From Lachnospiraceae bacterium (GTDB lineage Bacteria; Bacillota; Clostridia; Lachnospirales; Lachnospiraceae), in NCBI GenBank assembly GCA_017450485.1, contig JAFSTN010000036.1, positions 1 to 55,592 on the forward strand: 55,592 nucleotides of DNA. The letters run 5' to 3'. Shown here piece by piece: positions 19,585-55,293 of this stretch. The position numbers and the translations under genes were made by a program. Every line of letters begins with the position of its first letter. The first letter of the stretch is position 1. A model generated the notes under the pieces. That model saw only the letters and a list, made by a program, of their open reading frames with translations. It had not been told where the DNA came from and made no database searches.

Positions 19585-19616
19585 AAATGAACCACTGACT
19601 CCGTCCCCGTGGGTCA
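19585..19616. repeat. 32-bp interspersed repeat, copy 2
   Basis: One mismatch to 7083-7114. On the minus strand it begins with the TGA stop of the AAA+ gene (TGACCCACGGGGACGG...). No clear terminator is seen between this stop and the promoter at 19512-19559, so some read-through from the injection-system operon into surface-protein gene 2 is possible. Confidence 0.8.
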
Positions 19617-22043
19617 CGCAAGTCCCACCTCTTCGGCGTAGGGTTCGAAGTCCGACTTGGTGAAGACCTTGCCGACCTTGACGAACTCGTACTTGATGGC
19701 ATTTAAGTAATGTCTCATATGCACCTCACCGTTGGCTGTCGGATCGGCGGCTGCGAGGAAGGCGGCATTCAGGATACAGTTCTTGATATTACCACCCGCA
19801 AACTCATACTTCTCGGCAAGGAATCTGATATCCACATCCTCGGCCAGCGGAGTATCCTTCGGTATGGTCGTCTTCCAGAGCATCTCTCTGGTATCGACAT
19901 CGGGGAACTGGAACTCCACGATGTACTTCATACGTCTGAAGAATGCGGGGTCTATGTTGTGCTTGTAGTTGGTGGCCAGTACGCAGACACCGTCATATGC
20001 CTCCATCTCCTGAAGGAGCAGCGCTGTCTTGTTGTTGGCTGAGGCCTGGTTGGAGCCGCCGTCATCGGAACGCTTGGCGAATATGGTATCGCACTCGTCG
20101 AAGAAGAGGACGACATTACATTTCTTCGCTTCCCTGAATATCATCGACAGTGATTTCTCGGTCTCACCGACGTATTTATCCACAACCTTGGATATATCCA
20201 CTCTGTACAGCTCCAGATTCAGCTCATGCGCGAGAACCTGTGCCATCATGGATTTACCGGTACCGGGAGCACCGAAGAGGAGTACCGTAAGTCCGCGTCC
20301 GTAAGGATACTTCCTCGTATAGTTCCATGATTCGTAGACCTGCTTCCTGTAGGTCATCTGCTCTATCGCATGCTCTATGGTCTCACGCTGGGTCGGATTC
20401 ATGACGATATCGTCGAATCCGAACTTGGCCTCAACTCTGGTGGCCTTCTGTGAGAGCTCGGAGCTCATCTGGGCATAGCAGCCCTTGAAGAGACAGGCTC
20501 TGGATATCTTATCCTCCTTCTCCATATTGGAGAGTGACTTGGCCTTGACCAGAGCATCATGTATCTTGCCCGATGTAAAGAGGAACTTGGTGGACATCTC
20601 CAGCAGATCCACGTCGTCGGCCAGCTCAAAGCCCTTGGAGAAATACTCCCAGCAGGTCAGACGCTCACCGGTGTCGGGTGTAGGCAGCTCAAGATCCGTA
20701 AACTCACTCTTGGTGACCTCACGGAAGTCAATATAGAGCTTACTCATGGCGAACACCAGCACACCCTTCTCGGTAAGCTTGGAGAAAGCCAGATCCATGT
20801 AGCCGAAGAATTTCTCCTTCTCCTCATCATGGTAGGTAAGCTCTGTCAGACAGCAGCATGACTTGGTGAGAATACACTCTCTGGTAACCGACCACAGTGC
20901 TTTCTCAACAAAGCCGTAATCATATATGAACAGCTTCTTACAGTTAATGGCAACCGCGCGAAGGCCGTTCTCACGGCAGAAATGCTTCACGAAGAACCTT
21001 CGTCCGCTGCCGTCGTCGCCGTAGTAATAGAAGATGCGGACACCGTCATCATACGATATCTTCATGGCTTCAAGACGGCTTTCATTGGCCATGACGGGAT
21101 CAAGCTCCTTATCGTCGGTCAGCATGTATATGAAGCGGTCGTAGTTCGCATCCAGTGCCAGGGGATTACGTCCGAAGAGGAAGTCGATCATACGCTTATC
21201 CGGTGATACGACAGTGCTGAAGGGCATGCTGTCATATACCTGCAGCGGCAGTACCGGGAGAAGCTGCTCGAGACATGCGGACATATCTCCGTACGCTCCG
21301 TTGATGGAGAAACCCGCCCCATAGAAAACCTTGGCTGCAGACTCTATGGTAGGTGCGGAGAGATTGGCATTCTCATTGATGATATGGAACACACCCGCGT
21401 AGTCTGTCTGTGTCGATGAGAGGATACCGCAGGCGAAGCAGAACTGGGTGAAGTACTCGAACTCCAGCCTCTTGCACAGCTCATAGAAGGGAAGTTCTAT
21501 ACCCTGCTCCACGGTGATCGCCGCACGACGGTTGATAGTCTCAAGACGCTCCACGATAGGCAGTCCGGCATCCTTGCGTATCTCATTCCATATCTCGCTG
21601 TCATCATCACCCGGCTCATCGTCGGTCGCAGCGAAGCCGGAACCGTTGCTGGCGGCGAAGTCCCCGAGCAGACCAAGGAGATCGTCGTCTATATCGTCAT
21701 CATCATCTTCACCGAGTTCATCGGAGATACCCGTATCGGTATCTTCATCGGTATCATCATCCGCAGCATCATCCTCACCCGGACCTGCTGACTCATCCTC
21801 TGCCGTATCTGACGGCATCTTGTTCTTATACGACTCGGTCAGTCTCGAGTGGCAGGTAGCCTCAGCCAGCTCGATATCCGGATACATTATGTTCTTGTAT
21901 CCGCCGTCGCCGTTCGCATATATGACCTTCAGGTGAGCGATATAGCTGTCGATGCTGGAGTTCACGCAGTCGAATACATACTGCATATACTCGCTGTAAT
22001 CCTTAAAGGGCTGATTGTTTAATTCTTCATTGAAATTTGCCAT
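19614..22043 (-). CDS. eCIS AAA+ ATPase (Afp15-like)
   Basis: An 809-residue AAA+ protein, the ATPase that accompanies nearly all eCIS loci and is thought to act in particle assembly. The N-terminal region has a very acidic stretch (about 85-135, Asp/Glu/Gly) and an alpha/beta region resembling the long N-terminal parts of eCIS ATPases. The single C-terminal AAA+ module has Walker A GAPGTGKS (591-598), Walker B LFFDE (about 646-650), sensor-like LATN and Arg-finger FFRRM (about 701-705), and ends with EFAGGNIKN-type sensor 2. ATG 22043 has GCAGGAAAC 5 bases upstream. It is the last gene of the operon, as in many eCIS clusters. Confidence 0.92.
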   Translation of the reverse strand: MANFNEELNNQPFKDYSEYMQYVFDCVNSSIDSYIAHLKVIYANGDGGYKNIMYPDIELAEATCHSRLTESYKNKMPSDTAEDESAGPGEDDAADDDTDEDTDTGISDELGEDDDDDIDDDLLGLLGDFAASNGSGFAATDDEPGDDDSEIWNEIRKDAGLPIVERLETINRRAAITVEQGIELPFYELCKRLEFEYFTQFCFACGILSSTQTDYAGVFHIINENANLSAPTIESAAKVFYGAGFSINGAYGDMSACLEQLLPVLPLQVYDSMPFSTVVSPDKRMIDFLFGRNPLALDANYDRFIYMLTDDKELDPVMANESRLEAMKISYDDGVRIFYYYGDDGSGRRFFVKHFCRENGLRAVAINCKKLFIYDYGFVEKALWSVTRECILTKSCCCLTELTYHDEEKEKFFGYMDLAFSKLTEKGVLVFAMSKLYIDFREVTKSEFTDLELPTPDTGERLTCWEYFSKGFELADDVDLLEMSTKFLFTSGKIHDALVKAKSLSNMEKEDKISRACLFKGCYAQMSSELSQKATRVEAKFGFDDIVMNPTQRETIEHAIEQMTYRKQVYESWNYTRKYPYGRGLTVLLFGAPGTGKSMMAQVLAHELNLELYRVDISKVVDKYVGETEKSLSMIFREAKKCNVVLFFDECDTIFAKRSDDGGSNQASANNKTALLLQEMEAYDGVCVLATNYKHNIDPAFFRRMKYIVEFQFPDVDTREMLWKTTIPKDTPLAEDVDIRFLAEKYEFAGGNIKNCILNAAFLAAADPTANGEVHMRHYLNAIKYEFVKVGKVFTKSDFEPYAEEVGLA

Positions 22044-22069
22044 ATCCGTTTCCTGCTATCGCAAAACAC

Positions 22070-22300
22070 TCATGAACCTGTATTGAACACCGCTCCGCGG
22101 TCGAACACGCTCTTGGCCGTATTGATCCCGGTCTGGTTCTTTATATCAAAAACCCCCGCCTCGGTGTCGTTTATGAAAGGCTGGCGTTTGCGGACATCAT
22201 ACATGTAGGTTTCTTCCTCTTCGTCGTAATATCCGCTGCCGATCTTTATATCCTTCTCGTTCTTCTCTTTATTCTTACGTATCAGTTCATCATTGATCAT
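22070..22300 (-). CDS. Small hypothetical protein in eCIS operon
   Basis: A 76-residue charged soluble protein, not recognised. It contains a Lys/Glu-rich start (LIRKNKEKNEKDIKIGSGYY), YDEEEETYMYDVRKRQPF and a C-terminal AKSVFDRGAVFNTG. Its ATG overlaps the stop of the SH3b gene in an ATGA arrangement, and it ends 26 bp before the AAA+ gene, so it is translated within the operon. No signal peptide or membrane helix. Confidence 0.6.
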   Translation of the reverse strand: MINDELIRKNKEKNEKDIKIGSGYYDEEEETYMYDVRKRQPFINDTEAGVFDIKNQTGINTAKSVFDRGAVFNTGS

Positions 22301-23034
22301 TGTGCGGCAGTCTCCGTGTCTGCAGTCCCGTCCCCAGCGGCGGACGGCTCCGTGAGTGCGTCACCCTCGGCCGGTTCCGTCTCCGATCCATCCTTTAGGA
22401 GAGTGGTGAACTGGGGCGCCGTCAGTTCCTCGGTGGGAGCTTCCACCATATCGATGAAATCCACGGGGAACGTCTCCTCTGTAAGCTCTGTGACCGCCAG
22501 ATACCGGGTGGATAGATAGCCCTCCCTGCCCGAGTTCGATACGACCTTGCACCACTCGTTGCCGGGTTCGGTGATATACCCTCCGGTGCCGGGGAAAAGC
22601 TTCGTGATGACTGAAGCGTCTTCACTCGGTCCGGTACGGAATCTCAAGTCAGGCTGTGTATTGGTCGTCCTGAATGAGAAATATCTGATTTCGAACACCT
22701 CGGGTTCGGGTTCGGGTTCCGGTTCCGGTTCAGGCTCAGGGGCAGGTTCGGCCGGCTCGGGCTCAGCCTGCTCAGGTTCGGATTCGGCCGGCTCGGGTTC
22801 CTGAACTGTCGTTGTGACATCTGTCACATCACCGGTGGGCTCTGTCGCCGCCGGTTCAGCCACCTCTGCGGACTCTCCTATCACTGTCTGTGTCAGGGCG
22901 GCCGGCTTGGCGCCGTAGGATTTACGGTCCCGGTTAAATACCGAGCTTTTGCCTCCCAGCAGTATCAGCGCAAACAGCGCCACTATTATGTAGAATACAG
23001 CTAATGCTATGAATATCCTTAAGTTCCTTTTCAT
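22297..23034 (-). CDS. Membrane-anchored SH3b-domain protein
   Basis: A 245-residue protein with a short basic N-terminus, one membrane helix (about 6-27), an extracytoplasmic linker rich in Thr/Glu/Pro with a long run of Glu-Pro/Pro-Glu dipeptides (about 75-110), and a bacterial SH3 domain (about 112-185) containing DLRFRTGPSEDASVITKLFPG and NEWCKVV...REGYLSTRYL. SH3b domains usually bind peptidoglycan or cell-wall peptides. The rigid Pro/Glu spacer would let the domain reach across the wall. An acidic tail of ~50 residues follows. Its place in the operon suggests a wall anchor or wall sensor for the injection machine, which is inference. ATG 23034 has GGTTGAGA upstream. Confidence 0.8.
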   Translation of the reverse strand: MKRNLRIFIALAVFYIIVALFALILLGGKSSVFNRDRKSYGAKPAALTQTVIGESAEVAEPAATEPTGDVTDVTTTVQEPEPAESEPEQAEPEPAEPAPEPEPEPEPEPEPEVFEIRYFSFRTTNTQPDLRFRTGPSEDASVITKLFPGTGGYITEPGNEWCKVVSNSGREGYLSTRYLAVTELTEETFPVDFIDMVEAPTEELTAPQFTTLLKDGSETEPAEGDALTEPSAAGDGTADTETAAQ

Positions 23035-23087
23035 TATACTTATCTCAACCTATACCGATCTGATCAATTCAAAACACAGCCCGCACA

Positions 23088-23975
23088 TCATGACGTGGGC
23101 AGCTGTATGTATATCCCCATGCCGCTTCCCTCGGGACTTCTTGCATAGATCGTACCGCCGTAATGCTCTACGATGGCCTTGGCCTGTGTAAGTCCCAGAC
23201 CGTTTCCGCTGATACGGTTCGATCCCTGGTAATTGAGCTCAAATATATGCTTGGTTTCGTTTTCGGGCAGACCCTTGCCGGTATCCTTGAGCACGATGAA
23301 TATATCATCCTCTATGGCGGATATGGTCACCACGAGAGTACCCTCGGTCTGCATATACTTGATGGAATTATCTATGATATTGCGGAACATGATGAGCAGA
23401 CGCTTGGCACTCGCATGTACCATCAGTTTATCGGATGCAGTAGAGATATTGACTCTGAGCCCTGCCTCTCTGGCCGCATCTGCGAGCTCGGCTATCGCAC
23501 GTCTGGCCACATCTATGATATCGACCGTGACGGCCGGATCCTCATCATCCGGAGGAAGCAGGCCCTCGACAGAGGCATCGGAGGGAGTGACCGCTGCGGC
23601 CTCCTCCGCTGCACGTACCTGCTGTTCTTCGGCAGCCTGAAGTGCAGCCTCGGTGGTACCGAGCTTGGATACCAGATCATCTATCTGCAGCTGCATCCTG
23701 CGTATGTCGGAGTTCTTCTCCTCGATGGACCGGTCACACTCAGCCCGCAGCTGCTCTTTCTCAGCCTTGAGCATACCTATCTCCTGCTGCAGATGCTCGG
23801 CTCCGGTATAGTCGTTGTGCGTCGCATAACACATATATGCAAAGGCAACCATAGAGAGTGTGAAGAGAAGAAAGAATACCAGCACATACGGCAGCGGCAT
23901 CGTAAACCCTGCCAATATGGTCAGTACATAGAATATGCTCGCTGCTATTATCGCCATTTTCTGCGAATTTCTCAT
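23088..23975 (-). CDS. Membrane HATPase protein without HisKA
   Basis: A 295-residue protein with two N-terminal membrane helices (about 8-26 and 30-48), a cytoplasmic coiled coil (about 60-122), a short acidic linker, and a histidine-kinase-type ATPase domain (about 150-295) with N box RNIIDNSIKY, G1 DTGKGLPE and G2 GNGLGL. No HisKA/HisKA_3 dimerisation helix with a phospho-acceptor His and following Glu/Asp is visible; the coiled coil takes its place. No response regulator is in the window. It may signal without its own His, or phosphorylate the nearby STAS protein as RsbW-like ATPases do, although its boxes are of histidine-kinase type. ATG 23975 has GGAGG 10 bases upstream. Confidence 0.78.
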   Translation of the reverse strand: MRNSQKMAIIAASIFYVLTILAGFTMPLPYVLVFFLLFTLSMVAFAYMCYATHNDYTGAEHLQQEIGMLKAEKEQLRAECDRSIEEKNSDIRRMQLQIDDLVSKLGTTEAALQAAEEQQVRAAEEAAAVTPSDASVEGLLPPDDEDPAVTVDIIDVARRAIAELADAAREAGLRVNISTASDKLMVHASAKRLLIMFRNIIDNSIKYMQTEGTLVVTISAIEDDIFIVLKDTGKGLPENETKHIFELNYQGSNRISGNGLGLTQAKAIVEHYGGTIYARSPEGSGMGIYIQLPTS

Positions 23976-23997
23976 TTTATGTAAACCTCCGAGTCAT

Positions 23998-24666
23998 TTA
24001 TTTTTCCCTGCTGCCTGTAAGCTCATCGAGATCTATCCTGCGTCTGTGAGCGGCTTCCGCTGCCGACAGATCGTGTGTAGCCATGATGATCGTGATCTTC
24101 TGCCTGTGTATGATATCCAGAAGTCTCAGGATCTCCGCAGTCGATACGGGATCCAGATTACCGGTGGGCTCATCGACCAGCAGAAGCTTGGGATGATTGA
24201 TCACCGCTCTCGCCAGGCACACCTTCTGCTGCTCTCCTCCTGACATCTGGCGCGGATATCTCTTATGCAGATGGTCGATCCCGAGCATGGTGAGCACATG
24301 GGTGATCTTGGTCTCGGCATCCCTGCCGCTGCCTCCGGTAGCAAGTATCGCCGCCGCGAGATTATCATACACGTTCACATCGGGGATGAGTCTGAAATCC
24401 TGAAACAGCACACCTATATCCCTGCGGTAGAAGGGGATCCTCCTCCGGGGTATGCTGCGCAGGTTTACGCCGTCCACGATGATATCTCCCGATGTCGGCT
24501 CTATCTCCTTGAGCAGCATCTTGAGAAGTGTCGTCTTGCCGCTGCCGCTCGCTCCGGTCAGTACGACGAACTCATCATCCGCTATCTCGGCGGAGAAGTC
24601 ATCGTATACCACCGGTGCCCCGTCTTCATCCTCATATGAATGACTGATATGGGAAAAGGTGATCAT
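23998..24666 (-). CDS. FtsE/LolD-like ABC ATPase, no permease partner
   Basis: A 222-residue ABC ATPase. Walker A GASGSGKTT, Q-loop VLFQDFRL, signature MSGGEQQKVCLARA, Walker B LLLVDEPTGNLDP and the H-loop ATHD are all intact, so it should hydrolyse ATP. It resembles the FtsE/LolD/MacB class, whose members work with FtsX-type membrane partners in wall-hydrolase control or lipoprotein/peptide handling. No FtsX-like gene occurs anywhere in the operon; the partner could be the two-helix HATPase protein next door or an unlinked permease. Its ATG overlaps the stop of the STAS gene (ATGA). Confidence 0.85.
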   Translation of the reverse strand: MITFSHISHSYEDEDGAPVVYDDFSAEIADDEFVVLTGASGSGKTTLLKMLLKEIEPTSGDIIVDGVNLRSIPRRRIPFYRRDIGVLFQDFRLIPDVNVYDNLAAAILATGGSGRDAETKITHVLTMLGIDHLHKRYPRQMSGGEQQKVCLARAVINHPKLLLVDEPTGNLDPVSTAEILRLLDIIHRQKITIIMATHDLSAAEAAHRRRIDLDELTGSREK

Positions 24667-24962: not shown

Positions 24963-24978
24963 ACTCGCTCCTCTGTAC

Positions 24979-26037
24979 TTATGTCAGAACAAACGCTCCG
25001 TCATATAATGCTTCTTCATCCAGGATCATCTGCTTGTCGGCGGGGATGGCGGCATTCATATCCAGATATGAGTTGCCGTCCATGACTGCCTCGTGCTCCA
25101 TCTGCAGTATCCTGAGTTTCGTACGCAGGGGTTTGAACTGATCCACCATGAATGTCAGCTGGTGTCTGAGTTCCTCGGTCAGCTTGCGGTTCACGAGTAT
25201 CGTGATGTCAAACACTCCGCCTCCCTGCATTCTGTTCTCCAGTATCACGGGCTCCTCACCCAGTATTATCGTCAGTATCATCTCGATACCCTTGCGCGTG
25301 CCTTTGAGCTTGTTCAGCGTATAGGCTTCCCTGACTATCCTGCGCAGTACATCCTCTTCGAGGAATCCGCCCTTTAAGTCTATACCGAACCAGGAACCGT
25401 ACATCTCGAGCAGCTCGGGGGAGCAGGTATTTAAGTCAAGCATCTCATAGAGATGTTCGTTCTGCTCCGAGATATCATTATATATGCTCGAAAACACCGA
25501 CAGGTACCTGTGGAAGAAGCTGTTCCTCTCCTGATATACCTGCGGAAACGTATCCATGAAGTTATCACCCACGGCGCTTACTCTGATCCTGTCTATGGAA
25601 GCTCCTCCGTATCCCATCATCTCTATGGCGATGTAGAGGTATCTCCCCTGCAGGTCATACAGTACCGCGTCCTCACAGTTGACCAGACGCTTCGCTCCGT
25701 GCCCGGTCATAAATCCTATCTTATCATACGGACTGATATCGGGTGCGCACAGCATATCCGCTATGGAGATGAGCCCGTGCTCATCGGTACGAACCTCCGT
25801 ATGATCCGTGGCCAGGAGATATATATAGCATACCATCTCCTCGGATATATCAAGTCCGGCGCTGATGCGTCCCCACTCGGATCCGTCGTTCACACCGTCC
25901 AGCGGGCGGAAGAAGATATGATGCTCGTGCTCACTCTCATCCAGAGTGATACGCCCGTCAGTGTCGTACGTAAATCCCTGCACATATGCGCTCTTTATTC
26001 TGTTGCTTTTGATCGAATACCATATACCGTTAGCCAT
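24979..26037 (-). CDS. Phage tail protein I-like baseplate protein
   Basis: A 352-residue protein. The N-terminal half (about 1-165) is beta-rich. The C-terminal half has the tail-protein-I (P2 gpI) pattern: NFMDTFPQVYQERNSFFHRYLSVFSSIYND, LDLNTCSPELLEMYGSWFGIDL, VREAYTLNKLKGTRKGIEMIL. In P2-like tails gpI sits at the outer baseplate next to gpJ and the fibre. Here it directly follows two J-like genes, the same order as in P2 and many eCIS, which supports the call. ATG 26037 has GGAGAG 6 bases upstream. Confidence 0.85.
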   Translation of the reverse strand: MANGIWYSIKSNRIKSAYVQGFTYDTDGRITLDESEHEHHIFFRPLDGVNDGSEWGRISAGLDISEEMVCYIYLLATDHTEVRTDEHGLISIADMLCAPDISPYDKIGFMTGHGAKRLVNCEDAVLYDLQGRYLYIAIEMMGYGGASIDRIRVSAVGDNFMDTFPQVYQERNSFFHRYLSVFSSIYNDISEQNEHLYEMLDLNTCSPELLEMYGSWFGIDLKGGFLEEDVLRRIVREAYTLNKLKGTRKGIEMILTIILGEEPVILENRMQGGGVFDITILVNRKLTEELRHQLTFMVDQFKPLRTKLRILQMEHEAVMDGNSYLDMNAAIPADKQMILDEEALYDGAFVLT

Positions 26038-26056
26038 TTATCTCTCCGGTGTCATC

Positions 26057-28147: not shown

Positions 28148-28187
28148 TATTCAGTGCCTCTGTTTTCCTCCGTGACATACCCGTATG

Positions 28188-31265: not shown

Positions 31266-31270
31266 CCGTC

Positions 31271-31732
31271 TTAACCTTCACCGTACTCGTCTATATCTAT
31301 GATCTCAGGCTCGTAGTACTCCTCTTCCTCCTCGGGTACAGGCTCCGCATTCAGATAAAAGGGAAATACGAGATTGCCGAACTGATTCGTCTCCGCAACC
31401 GTATAATCTATATTGATCATGATATATCCCTGCTGTGCCTGCATATCGGTCGTGATATCCACATCGGAAACCCTGGGTTCCTGACGCAGGATGCTCTCGG
31501 TCAGATCACGCTTCATGATGGTAAGCTCAGTGAGATTCACATCCATGAAGACATACGACGCGCTGTCCGTACCGAATGACGGTCGTGTCAGACGTTCGGT
31601 GACCTGAGTCATAAGTATCAGATATATGGATTCCCTGACGCTCTGCATACCGCTGCTGGTTACGAATCTCCCCGTGGCGGGATCTATACGCGGCGGAAAC
31701 GCCATGCCTGTTCCTAAATGATCTTTTGCCAT
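31271..31732 (-). CDS. gp25-like baseplate wedge protein (Afp9-like)
   Basis: A 153-residue protein with the gp25/gpW fold pattern: GRFVTSSGMQSVRESIYLILMTQVTERLTRPSFGT, LTELTIMKRDLTESILRQEPRV and INIDYTVAETNQFGNLVFPFY. gp25 triggers and nucleates sheath polymerisation at the baseplate; the conserved EPR core (QEPRV) is present. A Glu/Tyr/Asp-rich acidic tail of about 20 residues is an addition not found in T4 gp25. ATG 31732 has AGGAAAG upstream. Confidence 0.9.
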   Translation of the reverse strand: MAKDHLGTGMAFPPRIDPATGRFVTSSGMQSVRESIYLILMTQVTERLTRPSFGTDSASYVFMDVNLTELTIMKRDLTESILRQEPRVSDVDITTDMQAQQGYIMINIDYTVAETNQFGNLVFPFYLNAEPVPEEEEEYYEPEIIDIDEYGEG

Positions 31733-31757: not shown

Positions 31758-32570
31758 TTAACCGAGTTTGATCGGAGTTCCTTCCACCGATACCGGGCCG
31801 CTGCTCTTGAGTTTCAGCATCGAGTTGCCCGATGCGTTGACATTGCCGCCCTCTAAATTCAGTCTGCTGTTTGCCTTGATCTCCGTGCTGTCCGAAGAAG
31901 TGATCTTGACCTTGCTCGCATCTATCGATACGGTTCCGTTGGACCCGTTCATGAACACCTTGATATTGTCGCCGCACTTGATCGTAAGCTTCTGATCCGC
32001 ATTGATCTCCATCTGGCCGTTCTCGGTCTTCATCTCGATCTTGTTCTTGCCTTCCTTGTCGGAGATCAGCAGCTTCTTTTTATCGTTATCCATCTCGATC
32101 TTGAAGGCATCCTTGCCTGTCTTGATGACGATATGATCCTTCTCACCCTCGCCCTCCTTGTTATCCATGATCTCGATGAGATTACCGTTACGGGTCTGTA
32201 TCCTCTTATACTGGTTGTCCTCATCAAATGCCTTCTGGACGAAGTTTGAATTGAGCTTCGGTACGGCACCTATGATGAACGGCTTGTCGATGTTGCCCTG
32301 CTCGAATACCACGAGCACCTGGTCTCCCACCTCGGGAACGAAGTATTCGCCCCATTTCTGACCTCCGTAGGGAAATGCGATCCTCGCCCAGACAAGCTTG
32401 TTCTCCTGATAGTCTCTGGTCGTTATGTTAACCAGAACCTGCCCCTGATGATCCTTGTCATAGTTTTTGACCACCTGACATACCAATACTCCCATCAGAC
32501 GGTTGTCACCCATATCCGTTTTGTCTATCTGATGTCTGGCGACATCATCCATTATATCGAAAAAGGGCAT
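31758..32570 (-). CDS. gp5/VgrG-like spike protein
   Basis: A 270-residue spike with an N-terminal OB-fold (about 25-105; VGDQVLVVFEQGNIDKPFIIGAV) and a C-terminal beta-helix built from short alternating strands (KIEMKTENGQMEINADQKLTIKCGDN..., then TEIKANSRLNLEGGNVNASGN). It trimerises to form the piercing needle under the PAAR tip. The lysozyme domain of T4 gp5 and any C-terminal effector domain are absent. The gp27-like part, fused in VgrG/Afp8, is the separate gene upstream. ATG 32570 has a perfect AGGAGG at 5-6 bases. Confidence 0.9.
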   Translation of the reverse strand: MPFFDIMDDVARHQIDKTDMGDNRLMGVLVCQVVKNYDKDHQGQVLVNITTRDYQENKLVWARIAFPYGGQKWGEYFVPEVGDQVLVVFEQGNIDKPFIIGAVPKLNSNFVQKAFDEDNQYKRIQTRNGNLIEIMDNKEGEGEKDHIVIKTGKDAFKIEMDNDKKKLLISDKEGKNKIEMKTENGQMEINADQKLTIKCGDNIKVFMNGSNGTVSIDASKVKITSSDSTEIKANSRLNLEGGNVNASGNSMLKLKSSGPVSVEGTPIKLG

Positions 32571-39988: not shown

Positions 39989-40489
39989 TCAGTTGGGAAT
40001 AATAAGTTCCTCGTACGCGATCTCCACTGACTCTATCGCTACATCAGAGTTCTTAGCGTCTAAGTCGGGAGCATTGTACTTGGTTACCCATGCATTGGTA
40101 AGTGTCCACTGTCTGGTACCTACAGGTGACTCTACCAGTGATGAAGGTGCACCGGAGTTGATGTCGATCAGCTCGATCGTAACATTGTTACGGGGCATCT
40201 GACCTCTGGACTCACTCACACACTCCATGATCCATGTCTTGAACGGGCTGGAAATGATATAGCCCATCTTCAGTGTTACATTGCCGTGCTTAACGAGTCC
40301 GGGAACCTTAACAGGTGCAAGTGAACCTGAGTTACCCTGTCTGAACTCGATAACATCGACTGTGGCTTCTATGCCGGTTACTTCGCTGAAAGCTGCTGTT
40401 CCCGCTACGGTATCAACAGTCACCAGGAAGTTCATTTTGGTCAACGGATATGCTGACCGTTTGTCATTTTCATATGCTCCAGTAGCCAT
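39989..40489 (-). CDS. CIS tail tube protein (gp19/Hcp-like)
   Basis: A 166-residue tube protein of the gp19-like (Afp1/Pvc1) family. Signature segments: YPLTKMNFLVTVDTVAGTAAFSEVTGIEATVDVIEFRQGN, VKVPGLVKHGNVTLKMGY, WTLTNAWVTKYNAPDLDAKNSDVAIESVEIAYEEL. Hexamer rings of this protein stack into the inner tube. Length is typical. ATG 40489 has a strong AAAGGAGT at 10 bases, fitting high expression. It is 50 bp after the sheath gene, the normal sheath-tube order. Confidence 0.95.
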   Translation of the reverse strand: MATGAYENDKRSAYPLTKMNFLVTVDTVAGTAAFSEVTGIEATVDVIEFRQGNSGSLAPVKVPGLVKHGNVTLKMGYIISSPFKTWIMECVSESRGQMPRNNVTIELIDINSGAPSSLVESPVGTRQWTLTNAWVTKYNAPDLDAKNSDVAIESVEIAYEELIIPN

Positions 40490-42271: not shown

Positions 42272-42661
42272 TCAGTTTGCTGTTACCTTAACCTGTCCCG
42301 GAAACGTGATGGATACCGAGCCTGCGTAAGCACACATCATCTTACAGTCACCTGTAAGACAGGGCTTGCCGCCTATGATCACCTTCGGTTTGGTAGGGAT
42401 CCAGGTGCCGGCCGGCATGGGCATGCACGGTTGTGGTGTAAGCACTCCCATTGCTGCCGTGGTTGCTGCCGCAACTGCCGGATTGGCCATGGATGTACAC
42501 AATCCGAAGGGGCCTATATTGGCTCCTCCCTGTGAATCCGCGATGGTTGCTGCGGGCTTGCCCTGCGCCATGACCTTAGCCTGTGATGTCACTTTGACAG
42601 GTGCGGGTGCCGTGCCCATTGTGCACATTGCGGTTCCTCCCGCTGCTACCAGTTCACTCAT
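42272..42661 (-). CDS. PAAR-like spike tip (DUF4280)
   Basis: A 129-residue DUF4280/PAAR-like protein, the sharp tip capping the spike (Afp10-like role). Features: VAAGGTAMCTMGTAPAPVKV, a PMPAGTWIPTKPKVIIGGKPCLTGDCKMMCAYAG block with clustered Cys, and a C-terminal GSVSITFPGQ. Cys residues at the tip probably bind metal. No effector domain is fused. The ATG overlaps the stop of the upstream 269-residue gene by 8 bp (ATGAGTGA), so they are coupled. Confidence 0.9.
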   Translation of the reverse strand: MSELVAAGGTAMCTMGTAPAPVKVTSQAKVMAQGKPAATIADSQGGANIGPFGLCTSMANPAVAAATTAAMGVLTPQPCMPMPAGTWIPTKPKVIIGGKPCLTGDCKMMCAYAGSVSITFPGQVKVTAN

Positions 42662-43463: not shown

Positions 43464-43471
43464 TTCTTCTC

Positions 43472-44062
43472 CTACCTCCTTTCCTCTCCGGTTACACTGA
43501 TCTCAAAACCGGCATCGGTTACACGAGGTGTATCGATGATCTCACCGCTTGACAGGTATACGGGTGCCGCCCGGTAGAACAGGCTGATCTGATAAGGCTT
43601 GTTGATCGCCTGCCATACCCGCACTTTTTCCTCCAGACTTATCTTCGCCTGAGACAGTACTATCGGAGGCTCCTGCGTGTCGAGCCAGTTTTGGAGTTCA
43701 TTGGGCCTGACGGAACTGTTATCGTTCACTATCTGCGCTATGCGCCCAATGATTTTCTGTATATCGGGATCCTTGAGGCCCATCTGGCCGGATCCGTTGA
43801 TAAAGACCATATAGTATAATGCATATGGTCTGGGCGGTTTGGATATCTGAGCCCGGCCTGCCTGTACATATCTGGGACCGGTCACTTCCACGTCCTCTCT
43901 GATATCATACAGATACAGACCTACGATATAGTCCACGTCCTGAGACATGGGGGACGATATCTCTATATTGTTGGGAGAAGGGATGGGCTCGGGACACATC
44001 TTCTCCCTGAGCGTCTTGATTATATATGCGCTTACATCTGATATTATCGGATAATCTGCCAT
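43472..44062 (-). CDS. DUF4255/Pvc16-like sheath terminator (cap)
   Basis: A 196-residue DUF4255 protein, the family of Afp16/Pvc16, which caps the tube and sheath at the distal end and sets particle ends. N-terminal ISDVSAYIIKTLREKMCPEPIPSPNNIEISSPMSQDVDYIVGLYLYDIREDVE and the PPRPYALYYMVFINGS segment are typical. The C-terminal domain is short. ATG 44062 has AAGGGAG 8 bases upstream; the gene starts 3 bp after the anchored coiled-coil gene, linking the membrane module to the structural module. Confidence 0.92.
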   Translation of the reverse strand: MADYPIISDVSAYIIKTLREKMCPEPIPSPNNIEISSPMSQDVDYIVGLYLYDIREDVEVTGPRYVQAGRAQISKPPRPYALYYMVFINGSGQMGLKDPDIQKIIGRIAQIVNDNSSVRPNELQNWLDTQEPPIVLSQAKISLEEKVRVWQAINKPYQISLFYRAAPVYLSSGEIIDTPRVTDAGFEISVTGEERR

Positions 44063-44065
44063 CTG

Positions 44066-46777: not shown

Positions 46778-46802
46778 TGCTTTTCTCTCTCGTCCGTCAA
46801 AC

Positions 46803-48872
46803 TTACTCCGGAAGTTTCTTTATAAGCCCGTTCAGCGCATCAAATCTGCCTGTGTAGAGCACACCGCCGGCTTCATCATACAACTCTATCTTCAGATCAT
46901 CCATTGACTGCTGGAGCAGTGGCAGATAGGTAAATGTCTTATCGATCTCAACCTTTGTATTTCCGCCCACATAAGTGCCGTCCTTGTACAGGATACAGAA
47001 GCTCTTCACTTCTTTATCTTCGGGCATGATCTGAAGCTGTATCAGATTGGTGTCATCGAGCTCTATCGTAAATGTACCGAGGACATCTCCCTCGTTCTTC
47101 TTGATATCGAAGCCGGATGTGATGCTCAAGGGACCTGACTCCTCACTCGGATCTATGACACAATCGTCCACAAACTCATCCCCGTTATACAGTCTGATCT
47201 TGACCTCATCCAGCTTCTCCAGATCCAGACCCAGATGCCTTAAGGGCTTGTCCTTGGCGGTACGCTCCCCTACCAATGTATTATTGATCCAGAGCTCATA
47301 ATCGGTAATATCCACAGCGAAATCATCCGGTATAGTTATGTTAACCTCGAATGCCATATCCTGGATGATCCGTTCGATGGAATAGAATGCACCGTCGGCT
47401 GTGTTCTTCTCAACATAACTGGTACCCACTACCGCTGTCTGCATATCCGCATCCGTGCCTGAGAGTATAGCGCTGATACCGCCGCAGGTCAGTCTGTCAA
47501 AAGAGTACAGTGTCTGGGAGTAGAGCTTCATTGCATCCAGGAGACCGTTCTGGAGTTCCTCGTAGCTTTCCAGCTGGGAATCATACTCCTCGAAGGTCAA
47601 CTGTCCCAGGCGGTTTTTGAGCTCGGCTGCGGCCAGCTCCTCTTTTGCCTTGTCCAGATCACTGATGCTCTGCTTATATGAGTTCTTCACCGATATATAG
47701 TTGTTAAAGGTATCCGTGACAGTCTGGTCGAGTGTCTCCTTCGCGGCGTCCTTTTCCTTGGCGGCTGCCGCATAATCGAGAACATTCTGGAACAGCACAT
47801 ACGGATCATCATCTATATAGCGGGTACCGTCCATGTTGCCCTTGAACCAGAGCCTCGGGATCTTCACGAAGAGGAATATCCTGATCTTCCCCTCCCAGTA
47901 GCTGTCTATCTTGGTCAGGAAATCCTTGTAATCCTTTTTGAAGGACTTCTTGTTGATGCTGTTGCCGTTCAGTGCTGCGCTCACATATGACGCGATCATA
48001 TTGGCGTCCCTGCCGTATTTGTTCTTGACCAGCCCCCAGTTCGTATTGAGTTCGGCTCTCGCCGTGGTCTCCGCTATGCATGCCTCATAATAGGTCTCGT
48101 CACGGTCCTCGGTATATTGTATCAGAGCGTCGAGCTGGTCTCTGGATACCTCGGATTCCAGATACGGCTTCTCAAATGTGTACTGAGTGGTCACATCTAT
48201 GCCAATCATCTTGGTCAGCTTCTGCAGATCCGCCTCCAGAGTACGTCTGTCCGATGTGATCTTGTCATTGGTGCTGTCCAGTTTCTTCTGTATCTTATCC
48301 ACGTCAGCCTGCGTGGCCTGACCGGTACGGAGTCTCGCCTGATTTCTGGCCAGACCGTCCTTAAGGCTCTCGGCTCTGCGCTCGTTAAATTCAATGGTCT
48401 CCTGCAATACCACGATCTCAACGTAGAGATTGTTGACAGTCTCGCTGATCTCATAGGTCTTATCCTGCAGGTTGTGCTGGGCGACCTTGATGTCATACTG
48501 TATCGCCACGGGCTTGAACTGGAACTCCGACGCCTCCGCCATATTGGGGCTCGTGGGAAACTGGAAGTTAAGCAGCGGTGACCATCTGAACTGGCTCATG
48601 GATTCCTGCTTCAGCTTGATGGCTTTGACCGCACTCTCATATTCAGCCTGTTTGGATGCAATGGCGTCCTCTGCGTTCTCATACTCAAGTGAGTTCTGTA
48701 TGGCCAGCAGGCGACAGGCCTTGAGTGTGATCTTCTGTTCTGCGGCTGCTTCGGCTTCGATGGAACCGGTGCAGGCGATGTCAAGGACATCCCCGACGGG
48801 TGTACATATGAGTATCGCGCATGCCAGAAGTATGGCCGTTATTCTGTTTAGGATGCCGGTCAGCTGCTTCAT
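46803..48872 (-). CDS. TolC-like coiled-coil secreted protein
   Basis: A 689-residue protein with a signal peptide (hydrophobic about 8-28, ending near ...EAEAAAEQK). Residues about 45-520 show the outer-membrane-efflux (TolC) helical pattern: KITLKACRLLAIQNSLEYENAE, YVEIVVLQETIEFNERRAESLKDGLARNQARLRTGQATQADVDKIQ, and a second half with RLGQLTFEEYDSQLESYEELQNGLLDA. The C-terminal ~200 residues are beta-rich. The ATG at 48872 overlaps the MORN gene region with only 3 bp between stop and start. A TolC fold in a monoderm with no outer membrane is odd; it may form a periplasm-spanning or wall-spanning helical barrel or just reuse the hairpin fold. Confidence 0.7.
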   Translation of the reverse strand: MKQLTGILNRITAILLACAILICTPVGDVLDIACTGSIEAEAAAEQKITLKACRLLAIQNSLEYENAEDAIASKQAEYESAVKAIKLKQESMSQFRWSPLLNFQFPTSPNMAEASEFQFKPVAIQYDIKVAQHNLQDKTYEISETVNNLYVEIVVLQETIEFNERRAESLKDGLARNQARLRTGQATQADVDKIQKKLDSTNDKITSDRRTLEADLQKLTKMIGIDVTTQYTFEKPYLESEVSRDQLDALIQYTEDRDETYYEACIAETTARAELNTNWGLVKNKYGRDANMIASYVSAALNGNSINKKSFKKDYKDFLTKIDSYWEGKIRIFLFVKIPRLWFKGNMDGTRYIDDDPYVLFQNVLDYAAAAKEKDAAKETLDQTVTDTFNNYISVKNSYKQSISDLDKAKEELAAAELKNRLGQLTFEEYDSQLESYEELQNGLLDAMKLYSQTLYSFDRLTCGGISAILSGTDADMQTAVVGTSYVEKNTADGAFYSIERIIQDMAFEVNITIPDDFAVDITDYELWINNTLVGERTAKDKPLRHLGLDLEKLDEVKIRLYNGDEFVDDCVIDPSEESGPLSITSGFDIKKNEGDVLGTFTIELDDTNLIQLQIMPEDKEVKSFCILYKDGTYVGGNTKVEIDKTFTYLPLLQQSMDDLKIELYDEAGGVLYTGRFDALNGLIKKLPE

Positions 48873-48875
48873 ATA

Positions 48876-50111
48876 CTACGCTGTCTCCTCTTCGTCCTGC
48901 GAGACATAATAGAACTCGAAGTATCCCGCCCTGTTCGGGCACACGAATGAATACAACACATCTCCTCTGCGGAATGTATATATATAGACCTCATAATCTC
49001 TGTCATAAGCTTCCACCGTCGATACATCGGAGAAGCTGTCCGTAGTGACCAGATCAGCCACTCCGTCAAATGCGTTCCTGCCGGAATTGATGATGTCTAT
49101 GGCTATCGCCTCGGGCAGAACGATATCACTGAAACCCTCGTAAACGGGCGATCCCAGTACATCCTCTATATCGGGGATGGTATCCACGACTTCTCCGCCA
49201 TAGGTGAAGTAATCGTGGAGGACATAAACCTCCGTGACCTTCTCTTCGTCATCGAGAGCCTCGGCATCCCTGACTCCGTGATAGAGTGCGCCGATACCGG
49301 TCATGTACACGACCGACTCATCATCGGTCATGTAGAGATCTCTGGCTCCCTTGTAGCAGTCGGCAACTTCGGATGCGGTCTTGCCCAGCATCTCACTGTA
49401 GACGATATTATCGCTTGAAAATGATCCGATGTAGAGTTCATTCTCGCCGGAATCATACAGGATGCCCGCCCCGTTCTTCATGCCGCGGGCGAAGCTTCCC
49501 TCATACTCCTTGGTACCGTTCTCACGATAGAGAGTACCGTTGCCCTCGAACCGGTTATCATGGAACGTGCCCTGGTACATCATATTCCCGGCGGGATAGT
49601 TCAATGTGCCCTGACCCTCGTATTTATTCTGGTCAAAGGTACCGGTATATACGACATTGCCGACCGGATTGTACAGAGTACCCTCTCCGGTCACATATCC
49701 TTCCTCTACATTACCGTCGAATGCCCGGTATCCCGACTTGCCCAGGATCCTCACATGGCCCTTGGCGGTCCTGAGTCTCAATGAATTGTAGTCGTATGTC
49801 TTGACCCCGTCCTCATCGAAATGCTTAAAAAGCGATGTCTCGGTACTGATGTACCAGATGCTCACGACGCCTATGATGAGCACCAGCGCATAGACCAGGC
49901 GTCTGGATATCATCCATCGTCCTACAGTGAAGTAGTCTTCATTGTTGCGGGGCTTAAAGCCCAGCAGATTGGAGAAGAACTCCCTGATCTTGACTACGAC
50001 ACGCGTCTTGATGAAGCTCCAGCTGGTGTACATGCGGAACTTCGTCACGAATCCGGTCATCTTGGACTTGACGGTCTGTATGAGAATATTTAACAGGTTG
50101 TTACCGCCCAC
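48876..50111 (-). CDS. Membrane protein with MORN repeats
   Basis: A 411-residue protein. GTG start at 50111, supported by GGAGG 9 bases upstream. A cytoplasmic ~70-residue part is followed by one membrane helix (about 71-92, LVYALVLIIGVVSIWYI), then about five MORN repeats (about 130-250): VTGEGTLYNPVGN, YEGQGTLNYPAGN, FEGNGTLYRENGT, KNGAGILYDSGEN. A C-terminal domain (about 260-411) ends in YEVYIYTFRRGDVLYSF. MORN repeats usually bind lipids or act as rigid connectors; here they would lie outside the membrane if the N-terminus is inside. Located between sensor and TolC-like genes. Confidence 0.8.
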   Translation of the reverse strand: MGGNNLLNILIQTVKSKMTGFVTKFRMYTSWSFIKTRVVVKIREFFSNLLGFKPRNNEDYFTVGRWMISRRLVYALVLIIGVVSIWYISTETSLFKHFDEDGVKTYDYNSLRLRTAKGHVRILGKSGYRAFDGNVEEGYVTGEGTLYNPVGNVVYTGTFDQNKYEGQGTLNYPAGNMMYQGTFHDNRFEGNGTLYRENGTKEYEGSFARGMKNGAGILYDSGENELYIGSFSSDNIVYSEMLGKTASEVADCYKGARDLYMTDDESVVYMTGIGALYHGVRDAEALDDEEKVTEVYVLHDYFTYGGEVVDTIPDIEDVLGSPVYEGFSDIVLPEAIAIDIINSGRNAFDGVADLVTTDSFSDVSTVEAYDRDYEVYIYTFRRGDVLYSFVCPNRAGYFEFYYVSQDEEETA

Positions 50112-50127
50112 TTACCGTTTCCTCCGG

Positions 50128-52545: not shown

Positions 52546-52581
52546 CTGATCCTGTCTTTCATACGATTAAATCAACACCGT

Positions 52582-53427
52582 CTACTGGAGCAGGCTCTCT
52601 GTACCTATCTGTTTGAAAGTGTTAAACAGAAGTCTGAGCCACGAATTGCCTCCAAGGAATAACCTCGACAGCAATATGCTGAGCGCCGCGATACCGAGTA
52701 TCACACTGATCCAGAAAAGTATGCCGAGTATATTGTCCGTATTGCGGGTAAGCCATAATCTGAAGCGTCTGTACGGTGTCAGCTTCTCCGTGCTGACCGC
52801 GGCGATGGTGACGTCCCTGTACAGATCGGTAAATCTGTCATAGCTTCCGTTCGAGGTTTTCTTTTCCAGCAGATAATAGCTTGTAGCCTTCTGACCTGCT
52901 TTGGGTTCGAGCATCTTAAGCAGGAGCTTCGCACACACACCCGTGCACTCGCTCTCACCTATCTCGGGATCGAGATCGGCCAGATCCATCTCATATCCGA
53001 AGTATACCGACCTGTCATTCGCCATCTGAAGCTGATCACCGGTAAGCAGCAGATACAGTATCGGATAAGGCAGATTACAGGTGATACATGCAAGTATCGT
53101 GCTGATACACACCTCTTCGCACTGTGCGAGAGTCAGCGTTTCGCCGTTATAGAACTCCGAAAGAGGTCTTTCACGGTGATACGGAAATACCAGGATCTCC
53201 TGATCGCCGTATGCGAACTCCTCTATCAGCACCCCGTCTCCGGTGCGGTCTGACATATTAAACAGCTCGAGAATCTGGCGTACCCTCGTGTGATTGTGCA
53301 CAACGATCACCGTGTACATAATGCTCCCGCCGGAGTTTAAGTCCTTGCATATATAGCAGTCACTGACCTCACCGACACTTTTGGTGCTCACGGTCAGAAG
53401 ACGCATTTTGCCGGATTCATATATCAT
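52582..53427 (-). CDS. Pseudokinase-like single-pass membrane protein
   Basis: A 281-residue protein. Residues about 1-220 are soluble and have the order of a kinase fold: beta-rich start, LIEEFAYGDQEILVFPYHRE (hinge-like), helix, then LYLLLTGDQLQMANDRSVYFGYEMDL where HRD and DFG loops should be, but neither motif is present. A membrane helix (about 228-252) and a short outside tail follow. The layout resembles EssB/YukC of type VII secretion (pseudokinase inside, helix, outside tail), by architecture only. ATG 53427 has AAGGAG 9 bases upstream. It is the second gene of the operon. Confidence 0.55.
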   Translation of the reverse strand: MIYESGKMRLLTVSTKSVGEVSDCYICKDLNSGGSIMYTVIVVHNHTRVRQILELFNMSDRTGDGVLIEEFAYGDQEILVFPYHRERPLSEFYNGETLTLAQCEEVCISTILACITCNLPYPILYLLLTGDQLQMANDRSVYFGYEMDLADLDPEIGESECTGVCAKLLLKMLEPKAGQKATSYYLLEKKTSNGSYDRFTDLYRDVTIAAVSTEKLTPYRRFRLWLTRNTDNILGILFWISVILGIAALSILLSRLFLGGNSWLRLLFNTFKQIGTESLLQ

Positions 53428-53439
53428 CCGATGGGCTCC

Positions 53440-55293
53440 TTACAGATCGAGTTTCGGTATATCAACCATGGGTTCCGGCTTCTGCTCGGGTGTTCCGCCC
53501 GGATCCGACTCCTTGGCATCGTTCTTGACTATCGCATATGCATAGGTGCATACCATGGGCATATCGGAGCAATATATCCTGATCTCGTATACACCCTCCT
53601 TGGCCGGTGCGGTATATACTCCGTCAGTGGACACTTCACCGCTGCCGGATGCTGTCAGCTCATAGGTGATGCTGACGGGATCCATATTGTTGAACTGTAC
53701 GCCGAAGTAATAATTCTCACGAGGTCTCATGACAACAGTGGGGGTCTTGGCCGTGATGGTCTTGCCGTAATAATCCGCAGTATCGAGGTCGTCACCCGAA
53801 GGGAACCTGATGGCTACCCATCTGTATGTCAGCACAAGGAAATCAACGTCATGCAAAAGCTTGGCTGCCACAACGAAGCTGCCCTTGTCATTGAGCACCC
53901 TGACCGCGGTCTCCGCATCAACCAGCTGCTGTGACTGTCTGGAGAAAAGCTCGGGATTACCGTATACGGTACTCTTGGCATTGGCCCCGAGTGCCTGATC
54001 GGCGGAGAGGTACTCATATCCTATCGATACATATACATTGCCGCTGCCGAGCCCGTGCGTGATCTCTCCGGAATAGCGTATATCTCCGGCTCTGGCGTCC
54101 TTGCCCAGAGGGATCTCCAGTACGCCCGTAGCCACATTCTTAAGCTCGGAACCGGTGATCAGAGCGGGGGCAGTATCCGATGAAGAATTCGCATCCGCTG
54201 TTTCGGGGACGGATATATCCGCTTCCTTGACGTAATACTCCATGTATTCGGTGCGGATCGAATTCTGTGCAGGCAGATCTATATAAGCATCGGTTGCGGG
54301 ATCAATTACATCCTCGATCACATAGGCGCTGTCGGTGCGCATCAGTTTGATATCGGCCAGGCGGATCGAATCCGTACCCATACCCTGTCTCATCTCGAGG
54401 TTGAGTCTGCCGAGCTCGCGTCCGACAAGTGCTGAGGGAGAATCCTCCGAAAGTCTGACTCTTATGGCTATGCTGCTCTCGGCACCTATAGCCTTATCAT
54501 CCTCAAATGCCGTCGCGGATCCGCTCCTCAGGATCACATTGGATTCTATACCGGGCTGGCTCATGGTCTTCACCCAGTAATCCCTGTACATCACACCGCC
54601 CTCCGGCAGTTCTATATCATCCACGCAGATCTCTATCTGCTGTGTACCATCCGGTGCCGTAAATGCCGGTATATCCAGAATCCCCTTGAACGAAAGCTTC
54701 ACGTCCGCATCGGTCTTTTTGTGTATCTCAAGCCTGATCTTTACATTGCGGTCCTTGCATACGGTCGTTGGCATCACAATAAATCCGGTAAAGTTCGCTC
54801 CCGAGAACACCTGCTCCTTCGTCAGGAACTCGGACTCCAGCTCCAGCCCTTCCTCATAATCCTCGCGATCGCAGAGGAATAACTCGAAGCCCTCACTGAT
54901 ACGGTTGAATTCATAATCCTGGTCCGTATCCTTGTGGCTCACGGCATATACGGAATGTATCTCATTCTCCTTGTATCTCACGCAGAGACTTGCCAGATCG
55001 GTATGAAGAGAATCAAATCCCGATATCGTGGACAGCTTCTTGACGATGGATGAGTCAATGATAATCTCACGCCCGGTACCGTCAATGACCACACCGCTTT
55101 CAACCAGTATCGACAGATCGTCCAGATTAAACACGCCGCACCCGCATACGATACCTGATCCGTACATGAGGCTGTTCATAAACCTGAGCTTGTCAATGTG
55201 GTAGTTCTGCTCCGCCTGGAAATCAGCCGTGGTAAGCATCTTACCCGGATAATAGCGGTTCCTTTCAAACGGATATAACTGACTGTTTGGCAT
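53440..55293 (-). CDS. eCIS-associated protein with conserved DFxxEQ N-terminus
   Basis: A 617-residue soluble protein and first gene of the operon. The N-terminus YPFERNRYYPGKMLTTADF, EQNYHIDKLRFMNSLMYGSGIVCGCGV matches a widespread family found next to DUF4255/eCIS loci of various bacteria; a biochemical role is unknown to me. The middle has YVKEADISVPETADANSS and other beta segments; the C-terminal ~130 residues look like an Ig-like domain (MVSITYELTASGSGEVSTDG-type pattern, then IRIYCSDMP). No signal peptide or membrane helix. ATG 55293 has GGGGGT 9 bases upstream. A surface or adaptor component of the particle is likely from context. Confidence 0.75.
   Translation of the reverse strand: MPNSQLYPFERNRYYPGKMLTTADFQAEQNYHIDKLRFMNSLMYGSGIVCGCGVFNLDDLSILVESGVVIDGTGREIIIDSSIVKKLSTISGFDSLHTDLASLCVRYKENEIHSVYAVSHKDTDQDYEFNRISEGFELFLCDREDYEEGLELESEFLTKEQVFSGANFTGFIVMPTTVCKDRNVKIRLEIHKKTDADVKLSFKGILDIPAFTAPDGTQQIEICVDDIELPEGGVMYRDYWVKTMSQPGIESNVILRSGSATAFEDDKAIGAESSIAIRVRLSEDSPSALVGRELGRLNLEMRQGMGTDSIRLADIKLMRTDSAYVIEDVIDPATDAYIDLPAQNSIRTEYMEYYVKEADISVPETADANSSSDTAPALITGSELKNVATGVLEIPLGKDARAGDIRYSGEITHGLGSGNVYVSIGYEYLSADQALGANAKSTVYGNPELFSRQSQQLVDAETAVRVLNDKGSFVVAAKLLHDVDFLVLTYRWVAIRFPSGDDLDTADYYGKTITAKTPTVVMRPRENYYFGVQFNNMDPVSITYELTASGSGEVSTDGVYTAPAKEGVYEIRIYCSDMPMVCTYAYAIVKNDAKESDPGGTPEQKPEPMVDIPKLDL

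Follow-up and report, generated by a model that had tools for sequence, protein, structure and literature searches.

The question raised by this locus is why the operon of a contractile injection system (CIS) should carry genes for membrane and exported proteins in a wall-bearing bacterium that appears to have a single membrane. The DNA analysed here (the window) is a stretch of 55,592 nucleotides, positions 1 to 55,592 of contig JAFSTN010000036.1 (assembly GCA_017450485.1), from a rumen Lachnospiraceae bacterium whose genome (2.62 Mb, 49 contigs) has a single sheath gene. ORF mapping gave 27 open reading frames (ORFs), all on the minus strand, in a single run from 55293 to 19614 with intergenic gaps of -8 to 253 bp (Table 1), and Pfam, NCBIfam and PHROGs together identified a complete CIS core: sheath, tube, wedges, spike, PAAR, cap and AAA+ ATPase. 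The original prediction had described such an uninterrupted operon with at least seven membrane or secreted proteins inside it, and both points held. Strong hydrophobic segments were found in the 281-aa (amino acid) and 805-aa proteins, the MORN protein (411 aa), the TolC-like protein (689 aa), the 903-aa protein, the HATPase protein (295 aa) and the SH3b protein (245 aa), by a simple Kyte-Doolittle scan, which is not a trained predictor and marks a segment of the soluble sheath as well. The association of this membrane module with the CIS machine is well supported, and the fact that CIS genes travel with membrane and wall-side proteins suggests that the particle is fired from the producer's own cell surface instead of being released.

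A monoderm host had been assumed, which agrees with the zero matches to Omp85 in the genome (91% complete). The claimed lack of a lysis gene agrees with the search of the 27 proteins, in ORFs of 90 aa or more, where no holin, amidase or lysin family of Pfam was found; release genes could lie elsewhere. A prophage with head or lysis genes was rejected as no such family occurs in the 27 proteins. The same proteins contain no wall-opening enzyme family (Pfam) and no match to the membrane-complex families (TssJLM) of the type VI secretion system (T6SS), the latter search being confined to the cluster. At the gathering thresholds of Rfam the window contains two tRNAs only.

The sheath gene was found in all seven genomes of the genus (host included), in 11 of 61 relatives overall, in 46 of the 397 genomes sampled from the family and in 25 of 391 at class level; these three draws overlap and hold, by their handles, some 800 genomes together. 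In the family, 44 matches were strong, about one genome in nine, and two weak ones (G143, G302) were not counted. By identity to the window sheath the strong matches fell in two groups of 22, one with identities of at least 60% (clade A), the other at approximately 50-57% (clade B), the latter including a sheath in two pieces with 57 and 42% identity. The TolC-like profile gave 26 matches in 397 genomes, of which the 21 strong ones were all in genomes with a sheath (20 clade A, 1 clade B); five weak matches (E 9.6e-7 to 9.3e-4), left out of the counts, were in sheath-less genomes. Two clade-A genomes had no strong TolC-like match, G262, where the sheath contig is 3.8 kb long, and G075, which has a solo sheath. 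The pseudokinase profile matched 23 of 397 genomes (19 clade A, 4 clade B), none of them without a sheath. It must be noted that the sheath, TolC-like and pseudokinase surveys were matched by size and shown handles, not genome by genome.

Gene order was compared in named clade-A-type loci, using from the best 80 of 202 the 50 whose DNA upstream of the cap gene is 9.9 kb or longer and leaving out 30 shorter ones. From the pseudokinase gene through the sheath gene, order and strand were identical in all 50, thus the arrangement is not due to chance. The MORN and TolC-like genes were present in all 50, the 903-aa and sensor genes in 49 each, and the pseudokinase gene in 46. The original prediction had bound the membrane genes to the machine, and this collinearity, together with the scarcity of the TolC-like and pseudokinase families outside sheath-bearing genomes, agrees with it. 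The same two observations make it highly improbable that the membrane genes belong to an envelope or efflux system of their own and share the operon as hitchhikers, a view to which the variation of the ABC ATPase, HATPase and SH3b genes among relatives would be congenial. The proposal that the membrane genes are always linked to the sheath stood for the MORN and TolC-like genes in the 50 clade-A-type loci and failed for three ordinary extracellular CIS (eCIS) loci and two solo sheaths, which lack them.

The view of the seven membrane genes as one set had to be given up in favour of three layers. The first layer consists of the pseudokinase and MORN genes, often with a sensor having four transmembrane (TM) segments, near the Cis13-like gene; it reaches furthest, occurring with both sheath clades, and MORN and sensor genes occur also in other families. 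The second layer (TolC-like, 903-aa and STAS proteins) marks clade A among the 29 loci profiled across clades, with the exceptions of G271, where a 1558-aa ORF matches both the TolC-like and the 903-aa profiles, and G748, which has a 588-aa TolC-like protein. The third layer, the ABC ATPase, HATPase and SH3b genes, is present or absent variably between relatives, which weakens these genes as core parts. The majority of clade-B loci have none of the genes of the second and third layers. MORN was found in 22 of the 29 profiled loci; its profile matched 6 of 20 genomes (G640, G052, G271, G748, G680 and G449), two of which, G640 and G052, were matched by the pseudokinase profile. In three clade-B genomes (G339, G135 and G271) the genes for Cis13, the one-TM protein, MORN and the cap are grouped at the opposite end of the cluster.

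Three loci of Clostridia (G449b, G659 and G777) served for comparison as ordinary eCIS. They share with the window the core genes in similar order, the AAA+ and Pvc16-type cap genes and the 120-aa chaperone-like protein, and their sheaths are approximately 40% identical to the window sheath, but their same-strand run is free of TM genes. G757, with a sheath alone in its 20 kb, was excluded from this set. Long Cis13-like fibres are encoded in G659 and G777, and the G449b stretch stops before any fibre. One genome, G449 (L152-L155), combines an ordinary eCIS with a CIS of the membrane type.

The first gene of the window cluster encodes a protein whose Cis13-like identity was missed in the original prediction, as were the soluble STAS and FtsE-like ABC ATPase genes. 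Since its score against NF053767 (90.6 bits) is below the family cut-off of 370 bits and the match is confined to residues 8-147, we call it Cis13-like and not a CIS13 equivalog; a PDB sequence search with the protein gave nothing useful. Approximately 530 distal residues are common to membrane-type loci: a profile of the part beyond residue 70 matched all 23 membrane-type proteins, from five families in all, 9 being in the profile by construction and 14 outside it. The ordinary fibres (G659, G777) share with it only some 65 N-terminal residues in a profile search, and the distal part had no BLAST match at E<=0.001 (best 0.028) in three ordinary fibres, which come from two genomes of one genus. 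Because all 23 membrane-type proteins match in the distal part and these three fibres do not, the end of the eCIS fibre that meets the target seems, as judged from sequence, to have been replaced by a conserved part. The Cis13-like protein was rejected as a membrane anchor in its own right, as the hydropathy scan found no TM segment in it or in the Cis13-like proteins of the mapped relatives.

In a tree of 30 sheaths the rows with membrane genes and the two solo sheaths are set apart by a branch whose support, 85/89, does not reach the tool's mark for strong support. The membrane-gene label required three changes on this tree, two of them being the solo sheaths, compared with a mean of 5.6 after shuffling (2 of 500 shuffles were as low), and a long-branch warning applied to the join of G757 with the ordinary rows. 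We take the separation of membrane-type from ordinary sheaths to be moderately supported by these sequences. The solo sheaths (L051 of G075 and L065 of G389, one of the two belonging to clade A in its identity) are intact ORFs in 6.9 Mb genomes of one genus, with estimated contamination of 8 and 11%. No other CIS gene was found in the fetched 40 kb, no Cis13 or large wedge homologue in the genomes, and neither the MORN nor the pseudokinase profile matched; possibly these are domesticated sheaths.

The gene next to that of the Cis13-like protein encodes a 281-aa single-pass membrane protein. The original prediction called it pseudokinase-like, which fits the predicted model, where a kinase fold is present. 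Active protein kinases have a catalytic Lys, the Asp of the HRD motif and the Asp of the DFG motif. Reading by eye from the strand order of the model and the alignment, we could not recognise the catalytic residues: there is no conserved Lys in strand 37-43, and Leu and Tyr occupy the expected Asp positions. A PDB search with the profile of this family gave weak matches only, the best of them (E 0.068) to a kinase. Among the 22 other membrane-type loci having a Cis13 (G271 counted once), 18 have right after it an ORF for a protein of 278-360 aa with one TM segment at 232-262, and 13 of these 18 proteins have IGT within the last 28 residues. The clade-B one-TM proteins aligned over their full length with the clade-A pseudokinase family (probability 99.8, E 1.7e-28) when four recognised members were included; the two unrecognised, least similar ones alone gave a probability of 30.5 in profile comparison. 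In the window protein the TM segment is followed by a conserved tail, FK.IGTESL. The tail motif is of the IGTESL type in clade A and IGT, VGT, IGD, IGN or IGE in most clade-B proteins. A comparable order, a cytoplasmic pseudokinase domain and then one TM segment, is known from EssB/YukC in the type VII secretion machine of Firmicutes. The likeness is by description only, and the protein described here differs in its short outside tail.

The remaining conserved membrane and exported proteins are a sensor-like protein, a MORN protein, a TolC-like protein and the 903-aa protein. HAMP was detected in the sensor of one relative, and the C-terminal part of the window sensor resembles, by eye only, a degenerate class III cyclase domain; this part had no match in Pfam, NCBIfam or PDB, and Pfam gave scattered weak matches only on 25 sensor proteins. 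The label MORN was confirmed by Pfam (Table 1), and the MORN repeats are predicted to lie outside the membrane. The predicted model of the 689-aa protein contains the TolC helical fold, which upholds one part of the earlier TolC-like label. In OEP/TolC channels, beta hairpins in each repeat build the outer-membrane barrel. Between its long helices the model shows nothing but coil at 94-110 and, at 329-339, two strands of 4 residues each, hence no barrel hairpins, and it must be kept in mind that it is a prediction with pLDDT of approximately 61 at 91-110. The absence of modelled hairpins makes an outer-membrane channel unlikely, and taken together with the lack of an Omp85 match in the genome it led us to reject that role; an additional C-terminal beta part also distinguishes the protein from outer-membrane factors of the TolC/OEP type. 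The 903-aa protein had no Pfam match. Its family gave 11 short local matches in PDB (best 6TRP, 58 residues, E 6.9e-6), the weak ones including 20-residue matches to three chains that carry the name lysis protein (E 0.03-0.04); we judged these matches to be due to chance or low complexity.

Several genes in or beside the loci look regulatory. The STAS gene occurs in all 10 clade-A loci whose full cluster lies in the fetched stretch and in none of 17 others (solo G075 and contig-cut G052 set aside). Partner-switching regulation combines a STAS protein, a kinase of the HATPase type and a PP2C phosphatase; the window has the STAS and an HATPase_c protein. A SpoIIE phosphatase with Cache and HAMP is encoded downstream of STAS in G178 and G133, none being present among the cluster genes of the window, and a response regulator and a histidine kinase adjoin the cluster in G158. 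The STAS and HATPase proteins, the nearby SpoIIE phosphatases and the two-component genes suggest that firing or expression is regulated. Such genes would be expected also if this were an ordinary released eCIS whose membrane proteins served regulation, cargo export or opening of the envelope at release without touching the particle, and the eCIS-like core genes and the presence of eCIS_core cargo in the clade speak for the same. We consider this unlikely, as the three ordinary loci of the same class manage without membrane genes (one of them in a genome with both kinds), the target-binding end of the fibre seems to have been replaced, and MORN, pseudokinase and sensor genes stand between the Cis13 and cap genes with gaps of 3-36 bp. 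Cargo candidates with eCIS_core were seen in the membrane-type clade in G680 (L159:7063-8943), G028 (C40:9211-9405) and G052 (C19 and C23), and in none of the seven genomes of the window's genus.

The reading that we prefer, and to which we would give even chances on these sequences, is that the CIS docks on the producer's own cytoplasmic membrane through Cis13, the pseudokinase-fold protein and MORN, with sensor-gated firing. The particle would assemble in the cytoplasm, and its baseplate Cis13 would dock by the conserved distal part onto the product of the neighbouring gene, the single-pass pseudokinase-fold protein, which would form the anchor together with the membrane MORN protein. Assembly or firing would be controlled by the four-TM sensor and in clade A also by STAS; some relatives encode SpoIIE-type phosphatases or a two-component system close by. 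In clade A the helical part of the TolC-like protein and the 903-aa protein would lie outside the membrane, within the wall, where they may brace or line the exit. Firing would push the tube either out of the cell, as in T6SS, or through the cell's own membrane, as in Streptomyces; the sequence is compatible with both. The wall-spanning build and the signal-gated firing suggested in the original prediction are likewise inferred.

It is instructive to compare the locus with known systems as they are described in the accessible parts of the papers cited. Anchoring differs between them. The nearest solved sheath (9EZM, E 1.2e-108) belongs to the membrane-attached, T6SS-like CIS of the haloarchaeon Halogeometricum borinquense, in which the CIS core is accompanied by a conserved linked membrane protein, a putative anchor with six TM segments (PMC11566945). 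That system resembles the present one also in the single-membrane cell and the linked membrane protein; it differs, by description, in its anchor and S-layer, where we find pseudokinase, MORN, sensor and TolC-like proteins. In the thylakoid CIS of Anabaena, Cis13 sits at the baseplate and anchors the particle via its own TM helix (PMC8894136). A Cis13-type protein is encoded here too, its role as baseplate anchor being known in Anabaena and proposed in our case, but it has no TM segment, which is found instead in the product of the neighbouring gene. The second nearest sheath (8BKY, E 2e-95) is that of the cytoplasmic CIS of Streptomyces, where a linked single-pass membrane protein, CisA, is required for firing (PMC10066040, PMC12237407). 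Streptomyces is also Gram-positive and has a linked single-pass membrane protein; it differs from the present locus in having a single membrane protein, whose outside domain is solute-binding-like, and in lacking a typical tail fibre, where we find several membrane proteins and a Cis13-like protein. We did not find this gene set described in the accessible parts of the literature, which included two eCIS surveys and one review, most subscription journals and bioRxiv preprints lying outside the search.

The kinship to the Streptomyces sheath lends some weight to a different view, namely that free cytoplasmic particles meet the membrane under stress only, the module being a docking or checkpoint device in the role of CisA, and that firing kills or remodels the producer. 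CisA is likewise a linked membrane protein needed for firing, the authors of the Streptomyces studies found T6SS-type firing across a thick wall difficult to imagine, and no wall-opening enzyme family occurs among the 27 proteins. We regard this view as doubtful, if a serious possibility. The parts outside the membrane (MORN repeats, TolC fold, 903-aa protein and SH3b) are larger than would be required of a CisA-like adaptor, and they suggest a connection with the wall. Lifestyle differs as well: Streptomyces is filamentous and developing, the hosts of the membrane-type loci are unicellular gut bacteria. A stronger form of the docking model, a trans-wall CIS of a monoderm with a pseudokinase/MORN anchor, a peptidoglycan-spanning conduit or brace derived from a barrel-less TolC fold, and gating by a membrane sensor and a phospho-switch, we hold to be rather unlikely.

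A number of observations weigh against docking at the membrane. The model rests on gene linkage, sequence and single-protein models, and its fibre comparison on the narrow sample given above. In contrast to that of Anabaena, the Cis13-like protein carries no TM segment itself. Distances of the membrane proteins vary in step with sheath distances (r 0.77-0.83, against a null maximum of 0.25) in the 44 loci that have every gene, 6 of 50 having been dropped, but those of the cap, PAAR and 269-aa proteins do likewise (r 0.62-0.71), and since other cluster genes also track the sheath and only cluster genes were compared, the correlation indicates co-inheritance, not contact. Recognised pseudokinase genes after Cis13 were not found in G408, G680, G449a and G748, MORN was not found in G408, and the interval from Cis13 to MORN contains no sensor gene in G133 and G339; because of these gaps no single membrane gene is universal. 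In G075 and G389 the sheath alone was kept, and the eCIS_core cargo of G028, G052 and G680 also fits toxin delivery by an ordinary eCIS.

Table 1. Genes of the CIS cluster in the window, listed from the first gene to the last
Feature	Position	Strand	Evidence or remark
Cis13-like baseplate-periphery protein, 617 aa, first gene	53440..55293	-	NF053767 E 1.2e-25 over residues 8-147
Single-pass pseudokinase-fold membrane protein, 281 aa, TM ~233-255	52582..53427	-	predicted model and hydropathy
Four-TM sensor-like protein, 805 aa	50128..52545	-	hydrophobic segments at 7, 251, 279, 460
Membrane MORN protein, 411 aa, basic N terminus, one TM ~72-90	48876..50111	-	PF02493 8.2e-9
TolC/OEP-fold exported protein, 689 aa, C-terminal beta-rich part	46803..48872	-	predicted model
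Large exported or anchored protein, 903 aa	44066..46777	-	N-terminal hydrophobic segment
Cap / tail terminator, Pvc16-like	43472..44062	-	PF14065 (Pvc16_N) 1.4e-26
Conserved protein, 269 aa	42654..43463	-	present in 80/80 named loci
PAAR-like spike tip (DUF4280)	42272..42661	-	PF14107 1.7e-31
Contractile sheath, 568 aa	40540..42246	-	PF04984 1.5e-17, PF17482 4.9e-15
Inner tube	39989..40489	-	PF06841 5.3e-31
Tail assembly chaperone-like protein, 120 aa	39516..39878	-	phrog_508 2.8e-9
Second tube-like protein, 518 aa, long repetitive C-terminal tail	37725..39281	-	PF06841 1.4e-5, below cut-off
Tape-measure-position protein, 629 aa	35833..37722	-	position and length variation in relatives
CIS_tube / hub protein 1	34771..35793	-	PF19266 1.1e-17
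CIS_tube / hub protein 2	33770..34756	-	PF19266 1.6e-13
Spike hub, VgrG/gpD-like	32594..33763	-	phrog_52 5.7e-18; NF033848 4e-12, below cut-off
Spike (Phage_base_V)	31758..32570	-	PF04717 1.8e-19
gp25-like wedge	31271..31732	-	PF04965 1.4e-16
Large baseplate wedge, 1025 aa	28188..31265	-	phrog_6 1e-11
Baseplate J-like wedge, 696 aa	26057..28147	-	PF04865 5.6e-12
Tail_P2_I-like baseplate protein	24979..26037	-	PF09684 3.6e-10
STAS protein (anti-anti-sigma type), 99 aa	24663..24962	-	PF01740 2e-15
FtsE-like ABC ATPase, no permease alongside	23998..24666	-	PF00005 4e-36; variable
HATPase_c protein, two N-terminal TM, no HisKA match	23088..23975	-	PF02518 3.9e-21; variable
Membrane SH3b protein	22297..23034	-	PF08239 2.8e-7; variable
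AAA+ ATPase of CIS clusters	19614..22043	-	PF00004 2.8e-28

Some features of the core and its surroundings can be added. The tail of the second tube-like protein has repeats, by eye WDIKANK...DPKP...NGD, and at most approximately one third of this protein is matched in relatives other than G001 and G002. The protein in the tape-measure position had no clear family in Pfam, NCBIfam or PHROGs, and its length ranges from approximately 430 to 1859 aa across the mapped CIS loci, which suggests very different tail lengths. The AAA+ gene is followed directly downstream (12687-19488) by genes for two large surface proteins predicted to be exported, one of 976 aa with InlB-type repeats and one of 1230 aa, and neither had a match beside the cluster in the 20 relatives fetched.

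The locus represents a CIS lineage with a recurrent set of membrane and wall-side genes in a wall-bearing bacterial family, detected by its sheath in about one ninth of the sampled genomes (44 of 397 strong, two of these being solo sheaths). The nearest named loci (the best 80 of 202) come from Lachnospiraceae and Butyrivibrio, many of the records being of ruminant-sample origin, and membrane-type loci occur also in what are, by record title, likely isolates (Lachnospiraceae XBB2008, Butyrivibrio Su6, AE2015 and FCS014). The genome of G449 shows that ordinary and membrane-type CIS are able to coexist in one genome. If true, a trans-wall CIS would be a further mode of anchoring, and it would explain the firing of a tail-like machine through a thick Gram-positive wall.

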